DNA of 35,578 bases from positions 1 to 35,578 of IMG/VR virus record IMGVR_UViG_3300027759_000019; one strand, 5' to 3'. Origin of the DNA: a virus. Positions within the stretch are counted from its first letter, which is position 1. Each line of letters begins with the position of its first letter. Made by a program: the position numbers and the translations under genes. This document shows positions 10,650 to 20,597 of the stretch, piece by piece. The notes beneath the pieces are model-generated. The model had not been told where the DNA came from. It saw only the letters and a program-made list of their open reading frames with translations, and did not search any database.

Positions 10650-12146
10650 TTAAGTTGTTTGATAACATCCGTTTACAAGAACTCGCCCACTTGACGGAAA
10701 ACTGCTTTCTGTTAATTGCGCGCCTGTAACATTAATTGCTTGAATATATCCAATGGTTGAATTAGATTCTATGCTATAAATAAATAGTGTTGTTAGTGCA
10801 TTTGCATCCATTTGGCAAGAATTGGGCCAGCCATAACCACCAGTATTTGATGTTGCTGTAAATGGTAGACCACTTATTCTTGTATTAAAGTCCCAAGTGT
10901 TTTTTGCAGTCCATGCAATTTGTAAAGAGAACTGAACTATTTTACCCACCTTGACATATTTTCCTTCTTGTAAAGACATGGTTGCCGTACCACCATTAGA
11001 AGTACCCAATATTGGAGTAAAAGTACCTTCTTCATAGTCATCTAGTGTATTAGCATTAGATGATGCTGATTGTGTTGCAGGGAATGTAACACCTGTACCT
11101 GAGTTGGGTACTGCTGAGTCAAGTGCAAGGGTTTGCCCTTCAGCCATTGTAATCTGTCGATTTCCATCACCATCAGATAAAACAACATAATTACTTGCTG
11201 TACGAATGTCTAAACTATCTTGGTTGCCTGTGTAGCCACCAAGGATAGTGTTTTTTCCACCAGTAGTAATTGTTGCACCAGCACCATCAGTTGTTCCAGT
11301 GCCTACAAAAGTGTTGTAACTTGCTGTGTTTGCGCTTACACCTGCCCGAATCCCAATATAAGTATTAGCAGCACCAGTAGTATTTGCATATCCTGCACTC
11401 CAACCTAATGCTGTGTTATAAGAGGCGGTGGTGTTGTTATTAAGAGCATCATATCCTATGGCGGTGTTGTAGCTACCTGTGTTGGAAAAGAGAGAGAGTC
11501 CGCCACTTGCGGTGTTGTAGTTACCTGCGATGTTGGTTGCGAGAGAACTATACCCACTACCAGTGTTTCCAGTACCTGTCGTGTTAGAAGTTAGTGCAAA
11601 ACGACCACTTGCGGTGTTATTAATGCCTGAGAGGTTGCCAGCTAACGCATTAAGCCCCAAAGCGGTATTGTCTGCACCACTTGTATTAGCCGCCAACGCA
11701 CTTGCACCAACAGCAGTATTTGTACTTACAGCACTACCTCCACGACCTACTCTTATACCATAAACAGTTAAGTCAGTACCAGAGTATAAAAGGTTGGCTG
11801 AGTCTTGTAATAGCCCTGCTGTGCCAGCGTATGTTACTCGACCACTTGTTAATCCTGAATCTGTAATAGATGTTGAAGTTAATGTAGTAATATTTCCTGT
11901 AGCAATATTAGCAGTACCAGTTACAGTAATATTAGTAACATTGGCTGTAGTCACCGTTACATTGGTAATGTTTACAGTTCCGCTACTAATCGTGGCGTTA
12001 GTTAATGTAAGATTACCAATAGTAGTAGTGGTATTTCCTAGGTAGATAGATGTATTACCCAAGGTAATGGGTGTGTTAAAGTTAGCATCTAAATTCGATA
12101 AGGGTATAGATGTTGTTGCCGTGCCAAAGGTGTATGGGACAGTCAT
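10650..12146 (-). CDS. Tail fibre / adhesin with YadA-like head repeats, 498 aa
   Basis: The N-terminus (residues 1-100) is made of short Thr/Asn/Ile strands typical of trimeric beta-fibres. Residues about 143-285 hold about eight repeats of roughly 15-17 aa with the theme NTAxGxxALxxNxxG, the left-handed beta-roll signature of YadA-type trimeric adhesin heads. The C-terminal 120 residues (from about 370, EEGTFTPILGTSNGG) form a globular receptor-binding-like domain. The protein would trimerise at the tail and bind the host surface. The gene starts one base after the nozzle gene's stop. Confidence 0.8.
   Translation of the reverse strand: MTVPYTFGTATTSIPLSNLDANFNTPITLGNTSIYLGNTTTTIGNLTLTNATISSGTVNITNVTVTTANVTNITVTGTANIATGNITTLTSTSITDSGLTSGRVTYAGTAGLLQDSANLLYSGTDLTVYGIRVGRGGSAVSTNTAVGASALAANTSGADNTALGLNALAGNLSGINNTASGRFALTSNTTGTGNTGSGYSSLATNIAGNYNTASGGLSLFSNTGSYNTAIGYDALNNNTTASYNTALGWSAGYANTTGAANTYIGIRAGVSANTASYNTFVGTGTTDGAGATITTGGKNTILGGYTGNQDSLDIRTASNYVVLSDGDGNRQITMAEGQTLALDSAVPNSGTGVTFPATQSASSNANTLDDYEEGTFTPILGTSNGGTATMSLQEGKYVKVGKIVQFSLQIAWTAKNTWDFNTRISGLPFTATSNTGGYGWPNSCQMDANALTTLFIYSIESNSTIGYIQAINVTGAQLTESSFPSSGRVLVNGCYQTT
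11292..11720 (-). repeat. Repeat region encoding YadA-like NTAxG units
   Basis: Tandem degenerate units of about 45-51 bp encoding NTAVGASALAANTSGAD, NTALGLNALAGNLSGIN, NTASGRFALTSNTTGTG and further copies. The protein theme is kept while DNA copies have diverged, so the array is old, though unit number could still change by recombination. Confidence 0.8.
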
Positions 12147-18095: not shown

Positions 18096-18605
18096 TTACA
18101 TAGGTGGTGGTGGTGGCGATACATCGCCCATTGGAGGCATTCCACCTGGAGGTGGAGGAGGCATACCCATTGGTGACATACCAGGAATCATCGGTGCTTG
18201 TTGCATTGCATTACCTTCAGGTGTAGCACCACCAGCTTGAGGTAAGGTTTGTAGTAACTGCATAATTTCAGTTGGTTGCAATTCGTTGACTTTGCCTTTT
18301 TTCTGACCAATGATTGAAGTCATGGTGCGTAGTGCGCCTAAAATCTTTTGTCCTTCAGGTGTCTCACTACCGATTGCTGGCAAACTCTGCTCTAGCAAAT
18401 CCATTGCCATCGATAAATTAATCATCGCTGCTTCACGATTACCCATCTTGGGTTCAGGCGTACTCATTGGTGCGCCCATCGGTGGCATGGATGGATCAGA
18501 AATAACATTGTTTTCATCAGCAGGTAACGCAGGTGCGCCTTTAGGACTGGCTTTGTCTCTTTGACTAGCAATCATTTTCATCATTTCATCTGATGGCACA
18601 CTCAT
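18096..18605 (-). CDS. Pro/Met-rich assembly-associated protein, 169 aa
   Basis: A helical middle (NREAAMINLSMAMDLLEQSL, then EGQKILGALRTMTSIIGQ) lies between a disordered N-terminus and a Pro/Met/Gly C-terminus (residues about 140-169 with PPPPPG and PPPPPM). Phages with this gene order often have such a Pro/Met-rich protein between portal and scaffold, but its role is unknown. Shine-Dalgarno AAGGGA lies 6 bases before the ATG at 18605. It is the first gene after the structured leader at 18606-18739. Confidence 0.6.
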   Translation of the reverse strand: MSVPSDEMMKMIASQRDKASPKGAPALPADENNVISDPSMPPMGAPMSTPEPKMGNREAAMINLSMAMDLLEQSLPAIGSETPEGQKILGALRTMTSIIGQKKGKVNELQPTEIMQLLQTLPQAGGATPEGNAMQQAPMIPGMSPMGMPPPPPGGMPPMGDVSPPPPPM

Positions 18606-18628
18606 AACATTCCCTTCAAGTTGTACAT

Positions 18629-18656
18629 AGGTTACTCAGTTTTACAAAAATGTCAA
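18629..18656 (-). promoter_or_regulatory. Candidate promoter before the scaffold/capsid genes
   Basis: Reading leftward, a perfect -35 TTGACA (18656-18651) is followed after 16 bases by a weak -10 TAACCT (18634-18629), about 24 bases before the start of the 169-aa gene. The perfect -35 within a gap is notable; the -10 is poor, so promoter activity is uncertain. The segment AACCTA also resembles the early leader motif. Confidence 0.35.
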
Positions 18657-18658
18657 GT

Positions 18659-18694
18659 GGGGGTCTTATTTAGTTCTCCCAACCCCCGTGGGAG
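18659..18694 (-). promoter_or_regulatory. H-type pseudoknot in the leader of the scaffold/capsid genes
   Basis: Read leftward: CTCCCA (18694-18689), one loop base C (18688), GGGGGT (18687-18682), TGGGAG (18681-18676), an 11-nt A-rich loop AACTAAATAAG (18675-18665), ACCCCC (18664-18659). CTCCCA pairs with TGGGAG and GGGGGT pairs with ACCCCC, giving two interlocked 6-bp stems with loops of 1, 0 and 11 nt. These are the proportions of a classical H-type pseudoknot. It sits 54-89 bases upstream of the 169-aa start. Function is inferred: mRNA processing, translational control, or 3'-end protection of the upstream mRNA. Confidence 0.6.
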
Positions 18695-18739
18695 ATGTTA
18701 CTGGCAATTGCTTGCCTTTTTCCTTCTCACGGGAAACTA

Positions 18740-18787
18740 TTAACGCCTAGTTTTCCGACCACGCTTCATCATCATTTTGCCGTACAT
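18740..18787 (-). CDS. Micro-protein of 15 aa, very basic
   Basis: MYGKMMMKRGRKTRR, preceded by a strong Shine-Dalgarno (AGGAGA) about 6 bases before the ATG, and starting 17 bases after the stop of the 55-aa gene. Seven of 15 residues are Lys or Arg. Position and ribosome site argue it is translated; function is unknown. Small K/R-rich peptides are frequent in this type of phage. Its status as a gene rather than a leader peptide is uncertain. Confidence 0.5.
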   Translation of the reverse strand: MYGKMMMKRGRKTRR

Positions 18788-18804: not shown

Positions 18805-18972
18805 CTATCCCCTAGTCATTCTGCCATAACTCCGCATACTTGGGTTACGGTCATTTGATTGCATACCTTGTACCCGATATTGCAAGGTAGGTACATCGGT
18901 TCTTGTGTTTAACTCGCTAGTTGTTACTCTAGGCGTTGCTGCTGTTGGTTGTACTGGTTTTGAATATTCCAT
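18805..18972 (-). CDS. Hypothetical protein, 55 aa
   Basis: MEYSKPVQPTAATPRVTTSE... ends MRSYGRMTRG; polar, Thr/Arg-rich and probably disordered. The ATG at 18972-18970 overlaps the portal stop (TAATG), giving translational coupling to the portal gene. No family recognised. Confidence 0.65.
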   Translation of the reverse strand: MEYSKPVQPTAATPRVTTSELNTRTDVPTLQYRVQGMQSNDRNPSMRSYGRMTRG

Positions 18973-20597
18973 TATCCGACCTCTGGTTCTTTCTTGGTTG
19001 TTTTTTCTCTGGGATTCTCTCTTGGTAGATTTTGTTCCATTTTTTCTCTTTTTGCTAGCTTTTCTTTTAATAATTGTTTCATAGGTGGTTCAACCAAGTC
19101 AAGCAAGGATTCTCGGTCAATTGCACCGACTTTAAAGAGATTAAATGCCATTTGTTTCAAATCTTCCGTAAAAATGGGAGAATTACTGTGTGCATCTACT
19201 TTTACAACAAAATCATTGGTAAATTGTCTTGGAATAAAGCGTAAACCGTTCTCATCAGTAAAATGCGTGTCATCATACGACTGCATCAGCTTTAAATACA
19301 AGGTTGCGACCTTTTCCAAGCTATCTTCTACAATCAATGCACGTTTCTTGGCTCGACTTGAACCTAAACGGGCTAATTGTGAGGCATGACCCTGACTTCT
19401 TACGCCAGATTCACCTCTACCTGATAAAACGTTGCTAATTCCCGACACTTCGGAGAACATGGCATCAACTTCATGGATTACTTCAAATAAATCAGGTGGC
19501 ATTTGTGGTGCTAAACGATCAACCCGTGCGCCTGGCATATCTGAGGCAATGTATGTACCAGCACGGTTAAGTGCCATAAACTTTTCATCAACAATACCTG
19601 AAACACCGCTATAAACTGTTGGTGGAGAGACTTGTTTGCTCAGTAAGTCTAAAATTTCAATCATGCGTTGATTGCGCATCTCTTGTAACTGCACTAATTT
19701 CTGACATTCACTTTGACCCCACAAGTAATCGTATTGTGGGTTCGGACACAATTGTACAAATGGACATTCACCTTTTAAGAACATACTCTCGCCTGGGCGA
19801 TCATATAAAATAATATCAGGTGAGGCAATCGTTACAACTTGGTAGTCTTGGGTATCATCATTCCACACCCATAACTCACGCATCTCTATCGTATCTTCAG
19901 CAACTTGGGGTGCATAGCGATTAATACCACCTAAGTCCAAATTGACGTTACCGTAAATGGTTGAGCCTGATTGACTCATCACAATACGGTTTACAGCATT
20001 AGGCATATCATCATCACTCAATTTGACACTAGCAATGACGCGTTTAATAATAGATTCTCGTTGTGGATGCGAATACAAACGGGCATACAGTTCAGATTTA
20101 GTAATGTAATAGACTTGTAAAAGTGCTTCTTGTCTGTCTGTGTACGGTATATCTTCACGCAGTACACCCATGCTTGACGGATCAATCATGTACGGCACGA
20201 TGCCACGGTTATAAACCAGTTTAATAAAGGTGGTGTTGTAGACTAATGCCCATGTCATTGCTAAAGAAAAAATTTGATCGGCATTCGAATTAAGCCATTC
20301 ATCATTCAGAGCTTGAGTAAGTATCGGTGTTTTAAATTGTTCTTCTTCAGGTACAGCAGCTCCGAGCGAAATAGAAAACCGAGTAGTCTCGGCAGAATAT
20401 AAGAAGCTAGTGAGCTGATCTAAATGCGGATGGATTTTATTAAAGTAGGCAGGAGGTTGTTCAGGCGAACTACCGAATAGATAGTAAGAGCGCAAGGAAG
20501 TGTAATCTGCCTTACGGGTTTCCATTGAGACTGAGCATTTTTCCATGAGATCAAGATAAAAATCTTCTCGATCAGCATGATTCGTAGGTATTCTCAT
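18972..20597 (-). CDS. Portal protein, 541 aa
   Basis: The N-terminus (MRIPTNHADREDFYLDLMEK, then ADYTSLRSYYLFGSSPEQPP) and a following segment with YFNKIHPHLDQLTSFLYSAE match portal proteins of short-tailed phages. A central region (MIEILDLLSKQVSPPTVYSG, then SEVSGISNVLSGRGESGVRS) corresponds to the portal stem/crown region with its conserved SGISxVxxGRGE-type loop. The C-terminal 40 residues are highly charged. It would form the dodecameric DNA channel at one capsid vertex. Position after terminase and before scaffold is standard, and it is coupled to the 184-aa gene by a 4-nt overlap. Confidence 0.85.
   Translation of the reverse strand: MRIPTNHADREDFYLDLMEKCSVSMETRKADYTSLRSYYLFGSSPEQPPAYFNKIHPHLDQLTSFLYSAETTRFSISLGAAVPEEEQFKTPILTQALNDEWLNSNADQIFSLAMTWALVYNTTFIKLVYNRGIVPYMIDPSSMGVLREDIPYTDRQEALLQVYYITKSELYARLYSHPQRESIIKRVIASVKLSDDDMPNAVNRIVMSQSGSTIYGNVNLDLGGINRYAPQVAEDTIEMRELWVWNDDTQDYQVVTIASPDIILYDRPGESMFLKGECPFVQLCPNPQYDYLWGQSECQKLVQLQEMRNQRMIEILDLLSKQVSPPTVYSGVSGIVDEKFMALNRAGTYIASDMPGARVDRLAPQMPPDLFEVIHEVDAMFSEVSGISNVLSGRGESGVRSQGHASQLARLGSSRAKKRALIVEDSLEKVATLYLKLMQSYDDTHFTDENGLRFIPRQFTNDFVVKVDAHSNSPIFTEDLKQMAFNLFKVGAIDRESLLDLVEPPMKQLLKEKLAKREKMEQNLPRENPREKTTKKEPEVG

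Follow-up and report, generated by a model that had tools for sequence, protein, structure and literature searches.

PK-B, an H-type RNA pseudoknot kept between the portal and scaffold genes of a large group of phages: a candidate mRNA boundary element

Introduction

One of the known pseudoknots closest in kind to the one described here precedes gene 32 of the phages T4, T2 and RB69; it lies 67 nt upstream of the regulated start on the same mRNA, in which A+U-rich UUAA(A) repeats extend over the ribosome-binding site, and it is bound by gp32 (PMC3014915). The element analysed here, PK-B, shares with the gene 32 pseudoknots its H-type form, its location within a leader or intergenic stretch of phage mRNA, a geometry of the coaxial type and a very short loop 1 (PMC3014915). 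It lies between a portal gene and a gene in the scaffold position, and no described pseudoknot at a portal/scaffold junction was found in the literature of the open PMC subset.

In tailed phages, hundreds of capsid and scaffold subunits are set against only twelve portal subunits, all from neighbouring genes. Placed at the portal/capsid junction, PK-B is a concrete and testable candidate for setting this split in output.

Results

The window, i.e., the whole stretch of 35,578 nt that was analysed, is a complete phage genome (terminal repeat of more than 120 nt) and is classed as a virus record. Its portal and adaptor proteins both resemble those of phage SU10 (Pfam SU10_portal, E 1.2e-10; SU10_adaptor, E 1.2e-8), and its terminase and major head protein have PHROGs matches. 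The order on the minus strand is terminase, portal, 55-aa ORF, 15-aa micro-ORF, PK-B, promoter, 169-aa ORF, 177-aa ORF and capsid protein, so that the placement of the pseudoknot between the portal and the scaffold/capsid units, proposed in an earlier sequence-only reading, is borne out. The gap of 134 nt given there is also right, running from the stop of the 15-aa ORF (18740) to the ATG of the 169-aa ORF (18605); the portal stop lies 366 nt upstream of this ATG. Neither the 169-aa nor the 177-aa ORF had a family match in Pfam/PHROGs-type searches, and the former takes the label "scaffold" from its position alone. The features of the region are as follows.

18972..20597, minus strand: portal protein (SU10/P22-type)
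18805..18972, minus strand: 55-aa ORF overlapping the portal stop (in a relative annotated as hypothetical, UOF81571.1)
18740..18787, minus strand: 15-aa Arg/Lys-rich micro-ORF, MYGKMMMKRGRKTRR
18696..18739, minus strand: remnant region; relatives have a second pseudoknot (PK-A) and a second micro-ORF here, both lost in the window
18689..18694, minus strand: PK-B stem 1, 5' arm CTCCCA, pairing with 18676-18681; compensatory changes in relatives
18688..18688, minus strand: PK-B loop 1, C (1-4 nt in relatives)
18682..18687, minus strand: PK-B stem 2, 5' arm GGGGGT, pairing with 18659-18664
18676..18681, minus strand: PK-B stem 1, 3' arm TGGGAG; loop 2 absent
18665..18675, minus strand: PK-B loop 3, AACTAAATAAG, 11 nt, A-rich here and in relatives
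18659..18664, minus strand: PK-B stem 2, 3' arm ACCCCC
18651..18656, minus strand: -35 hexamer TTGACA, 2 nt after PK-B (via AC)
18629..18634, minus strand: -10-like hexamer TAACCT, 16-nt spacer from TTGACA
18611..18616, minus strand: Shine-Dalgarno-like AAGGGA of the 169-aa scaffold-position ORF
18096..18605, minus strand: 169-aa Pro/Met-rich ORF in the scaffold position, ATG at 18605

On the plus strand, 18703-18716 of the window reads GGCAATTGCTTGCC, with TTTTT directly behind it. This terminator-like site is antisense and lies within the region of the lost PK-A; chance alone would produce sites of this kind at roughly this frequency.

PK-B reads CTCCCA-C-GGGGGT-TGGGAG-AACTAAATAAG-ACCCCC (18694-18659, minus strand). 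On re-reading, the earlier sequence and coordinates proved exact, as did the two perfect, interlocked 6-bp stems with loops of 1, 0 and 11 nt. When both strands of the 35.6-kb window were scanned for H-type pseudoknots under a single fixed scoring rule, PK-B ranked first (35.0; runner-up 29.5); when the whole window was dinucleotide-shuffled 60 times, no shuffle scored 35, and none of 300 local shuffles matched the score of PK-B. Ordinary nested minimum free energy folding of the region gave no signal (z -0.66). In whole genomes of relatives chance pseudoknots score up to 34.2, and the window genome taken alone is therefore only suggestive.

H-type pseudoknots are known both as stimulators of recoding and in ligand-binding riboswitches, and either role is very improbable for PK-B. 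A frameshift stimulator was rejected because no slippery heptamer lies upstream, no ORF runs through PK-B and the last micro-ORF stops upstream of it. A riboswitch was rejected because conserved ligand-pocket letters are absent and Rfam offers no match even at E 10 (the window and 8 relatives gave no match at the gathering score, and at E 10 only chance matches).

Loci of relatives were taken from portal-based IMG/VR searches, a DNA pattern search, genome contigs and two GenBank phages. The survey is based on 262 loci in which the gap from portal to scaffold could be read; loci from a later portal search were read separately. A pseudoknot occupies the PK-B position in 257 of the 262. Before correction, 247 of the 262 had a pseudoknot no more than 8 nt from TTGAC; four of these (L145, L173, L256 and L259) were removed as spurious or doubtful, and added back were 11 loci of the L153 type, with a T-run between pseudoknot and promoter, together with L226, L294 and L297, where the pseudoknot is present and the extracted stretch has no TTGACA promoter. 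The loci are not independent, many being near-duplicates; they reduce to 82 distinct cores and, downstream of these, to 106 distinct sequences. Throughout, PK-B lies between the stop of the last micro-ORF and the scaffold start. The viruses that carry it form a large, mostly freshwater group infecting bacteria; contigs from metagenome-assembled genomes point to betaproteobacteria as hosts, although these contigs may be mis-binned. Two loci from the same metagenome (L117 and L131, 3300013286) begin at an identical point of the second micro-ORF, where the assembly apparently broke at sequence common to co-occurring phages.

In these relatives the fold is maintained although nearly all stem letters are replaced. 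Stem 1 occurs as TCCC/GGGA, TCCT/AGGA, ACCC/GGGT, ATTCC/GGAAT, TGTC/GACA and CATC/GATG, and stem 2 as GGGGGA/TCCCCC, GGGGAGG/CCTCCCC, GGGGCAG/CTGCCCC, GAGGGGTC/GACCCCTC, GGGAAGC/GCTTCCC and GGCAGTT/AACTGCC; even in the closest sister, L040, CACGGGGGTTGGGAG is rearranged to CACAGGGGGTGGGAG with the fold retained. Because a raw-sequence MAFFT alignment let the G-runs slide and was not consistent with the structure, an N-padded structural alignment of 33 representatives was used instead. Its paired cells amount to 95.2% (72.0 in shuffles), a figure biased upward since the padding fitted every row to the best pseudoknot of its own sequence, and both sides are changed in 83 cells (shuffled 20.3, sd 3.8), a conservative count because a few rows are still shifted. 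The covariation score is 0.400 against 0.132 in shuffles (sd 0.013; reached in 0 of 500) and at most 0.113 with the 3' partners slid; the signal comes from both helices, and the mean pseudoknot score is 30.4 against 5.1 in shuffles. For each sequence the structure was selected ahead of the count, and the weight of the case lies on the shuffle and slide controls and on the double changes. A-C pairs, when compared with G-U pairs by strand, arise mainly from over-extension of helix ends. The compensatory changes in both stems that had been proposed as a check were thus found abundantly, and where uncompensated breaks in relatives would have spoken against the fold, the comparison favours it.

That PK-B is a chance pairing or a feature of the DNA itself is refuted by this test and retains next to no probability. 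Runs of G and C pair easily, and about half of the chimeras made across lineages keep a score of at least 22 (a weak contrast, because the stems are G/C runs), but two-stem covariation lies far above the shuffled and slid controls, and an interlocked fold would be meaningless in duplex DNA. The comparative evidence is decisive and, at the level of sequence, confirms PK-B as a true H-type RNA pseudoknot that would act in cis. PK-B and its counterparts have the interlocked stems, short loop 1, mostly absent loop 2 and longer, A-rich loop 3 of this class, with stem 1 of 3-7 bp, loop 1 of 1-4 nt, stem 2 of 5-10 bp, loop 2 mostly of 0 nt and loop 3 of 4-14 nt. Among the 82 distinct cores there are 44 distinct versions of stem 2; the stem letters are free save for a C-rich/G-rich bias, and the A-richness of loop 3 (59% A, 4% G in the 82 distinct relatives) is the sole sequence feature that persists. 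What is conserved in the predicted element is its architecture, not its sequence.

Of the 106 distinct downstream sequences, 105 have TTGACA (94) or TTGACT (11), usually 1-5 nt (most commonly 2 nt) from stem 2, and 48 have TANNNT at spacer 16, whereas 17.7 would be expected with any spacer of 15-18 allowed. The perfect TTGACA noted earlier beside the pseudoknot therefore belongs to a real promoter by the hexamer statistics of the relatives, and TTGACA, a spacer of 16-18 and a TATAAT-like hexamer, the hallmarks of a sigma-70 promoter, all occur downstream of PK-B; in the window itself the promoter, with TAACCT, was too weak for the threshold of promoter prediction. The TTGACA promoter drives the scaffold/capsid genes. 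Since its transcript starts downstream of PK-B, the pseudoknot can be present only in transcripts that run on from the terminase/portal side.

This arrangement bears on a leader operator of the gene 32/rpsO kind, in which a putative phage protein (scaffold, capsid or one of the Arg/Lys micropeptides) would bind the read-through mRNA and control scaffold translation or couple it to portal synthesis. The gene 32 and rpsO mRNA pseudoknots act in this way (PMC3014915), very basic micropeptides are encoded beside PK-B, and in relatives without the promoter 16-32 nt separate the pseudoknot from the scaffold ATG. Such an operator is nonetheless unlikely, because in nearly all relatives a promoter lies downstream of PK-B and the main scaffold mRNA lacks the pseudoknot, because 50-60 nt with the promoter intervening separate it from the scaffold ATG, and because the stem letters are not conserved. 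The earlier analogy with T4 gene 32, with a virion or scaffold protein as ligand, found no support for the same reasons: a promoter stands between PK-B and the scaffold gene in most relatives, and the stems are free to change. A location in the leader of the regulated gene, as in gene 32-type operators, is lacking in the window and in nearly all relatives, the promoter-less ones excepted. We regard a protein-bound operator as the weaker reading, ranking below a boundary element.

PK-A, the second pseudoknot of the gap, lies in relatives (e.g., L002, L006, L017 and L145) just before the second Arg/Lys micro-ORF, one example being GGG-TGT-GGCUGCCU-U-CCC-UUUGAAAU-AGGUGACC. In 19 sequences, both sides are changed in 33 cells (8.2 in shuffles) and the covariation score is 0.407 (0.112 in shuffles). 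PK-A is strongly conserved in sequence, with a GGCUG strand and tandem U-G/G-U that are nearly invariant, and is still present at 47-50% portal identity (L145, L146). It has no Rfam match, and the pattern used to search for it among the loci was too strict. PK-A is missing through loss from both the window and its closest sister, and the window has also lost the second micro-ORF; since the window has kept PK-B, the latter is independent of both.

Micro-ORFs of 10-20 codons encoding almost pure Arg/Lys peptides (e.g., MARKARKGRKARK and MYKKMKRGRKTRR) are found in the gap of 261 of the 262 loci, one to three per phage. The peptide MARKARKGRKARK occurs in 15 DNA versions, and this synonymous variation argues that the micro-ORFs are translated; the peptides resemble RNA- or DNA-binding peptides. 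Most are unannotated, and in MW202753 reverse-strand ORFs have been called in their place. In the distant relative L145 (about 11635-11870), PK-A and the micro-ORF are preceded by a TTGACA of their own and followed by a hairpin-ATTTTTT, and look like a stand-alone transcription unit. The gap might even form an RNA-peptide switch, in which the micropeptides would bind PK-A (before the second micro-ORF) and PK-B (after it) and thereby control the ratio of portal to capsid or the time at which heads are assembled, a speculative reading that we hold improbable.

Some relatives depart from the common layout. In L153, L155, L156, L163, L168 and L170, stem 2 is followed directly by 7-9 T or a T-rich stretch, and in L309-L312 TTTAGTTTT forms a U-tract after PK-B. 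L294, L297, L309-L312, L320 and L322 have the pseudoknot, 16-32 nt upstream of the scaffold ATG, and no TTGACA promoter before the scaffold gene; L147 and L173 have the promoter and no pseudoknot. With exceptions in both directions, pseudoknot and promoter are separable. At about 50% portal identity a terminator-like hairpin occupies the place of PK-B after the micro-ORF: an 11-bp hairpin with ATTTTTT in L145, similar hairpins in L305 (with ATATTTT), L306 and L323, and a UUCG hairpin in L146. At about 40% portal identity (L326, L328 and L329) no structure was found, and the scaffold ORF directly follows the micro-ORF. The hairpins of L305, L306, L307, L323 and L145 have a conserved loop of 15-17 nt around TTATTCCCTTTC (TTACTCCCTTTC in L323). 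In distant relatives the place of PK-B is thus taken by predicted hairpins that are terminator-like or may protect 3' ends.

Two further readings turn on these exceptions. As a complete transcription terminator, PK-B would shield the scaffold promoter against RNA polymerase arriving from upstream, and the layout of terminator then promoter, the U-tracts of several lineages and the hairpin-plus-U-tract of the L145 group would be accounted for. We consider this unlikely, because the U-tract is absent in most relatives and because relatives without the promoter retain the pseudoknot; full termination in these would silence the capsid genes and be lethal. PK-B could instead be a processing element, with cleavage nearby leaving a protected or standardised 5' end on the scaffold message, as its position just upstream of the scaffold Shine-Dalgarno sequence in promoter-less relatives would allow; where the promoter exists, however, the main scaffold mRNA begins downstream of PK-B, and this role is quite unlikely.

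Discussion

Folded and conserved, PK-B lies at the 3' end of the portal unit, usually with a promoter right behind it, and the idea of an RNA boundary or processing point, already raised by the sequence-only reading, fits this position. We favour, with a probability of a little under one half (about 0.47), an mRNA boundary element, i.e., a 3'-end barrier that would work as an exonuclease block and/or a leaky terminator. PK-B would fold in mRNA read through from the terminase, portal and micropeptide cistrons and, being compact and mechanically stable, would halt the 3'-to-5' exonucleases that trim the portal mRNA; it may also, or instead, act as a leaky terminator or a pause site for RNA polymerase. 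The portal-unit mRNA would thereby be capped and the start of the strong scaffold/capsid unit shielded. In the lineages with a U-tract behind it, PK-B is probably a real terminator, and in those without a downstream promoter it would be leaky or act after transcription. The barrier action and its rationale in copy number are both inferred.

The freedom of the stem letters suggests a mechanical barrier rather than an operator read by its sequence, and a boundary element is further favoured by the U-tract lineages and by the replacement hairpins at about 50% portal identity. Obligatory full termination is ruled out by the promoter-less loci that keep the pseudoknot. Against a boundary element stand the rarity of the U-tract (99 of the 106 sequences have 2-3 T among their first 8 nt) and the two loci that have the promoter without the pseudoknot (L147, L173). 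A G+C-rich stem with a U-tract directly behind it, the mark of intrinsic terminators, is found in some lineages and is missing in the window and most relatives; in the window, terminator prediction called nothing at PK-B on the minus strand, where ACTTGACA follows stem 2.

PK-B has no Rfam entry. It differs from the gene 32 pseudoknot of T4, which stands in the leader of the mRNA that it regulates, in being cut off from the next gene by a promoter. With the rpsO (S15) operator it has in common an mRNA pseudoknot tied to expression control, although the rpsO pseudoknot lies inside the translational operator and PK-B of the window is remote from start codons. From intrinsic (Rho-independent) terminators and stable 3' mRNA hairpins it differs in being a pseudoknot instead of a hairpin and in usually missing the U-tract, and it shares with them a G+C-rich structure, the position at the end of a group of cistrons and the place before a promoter.
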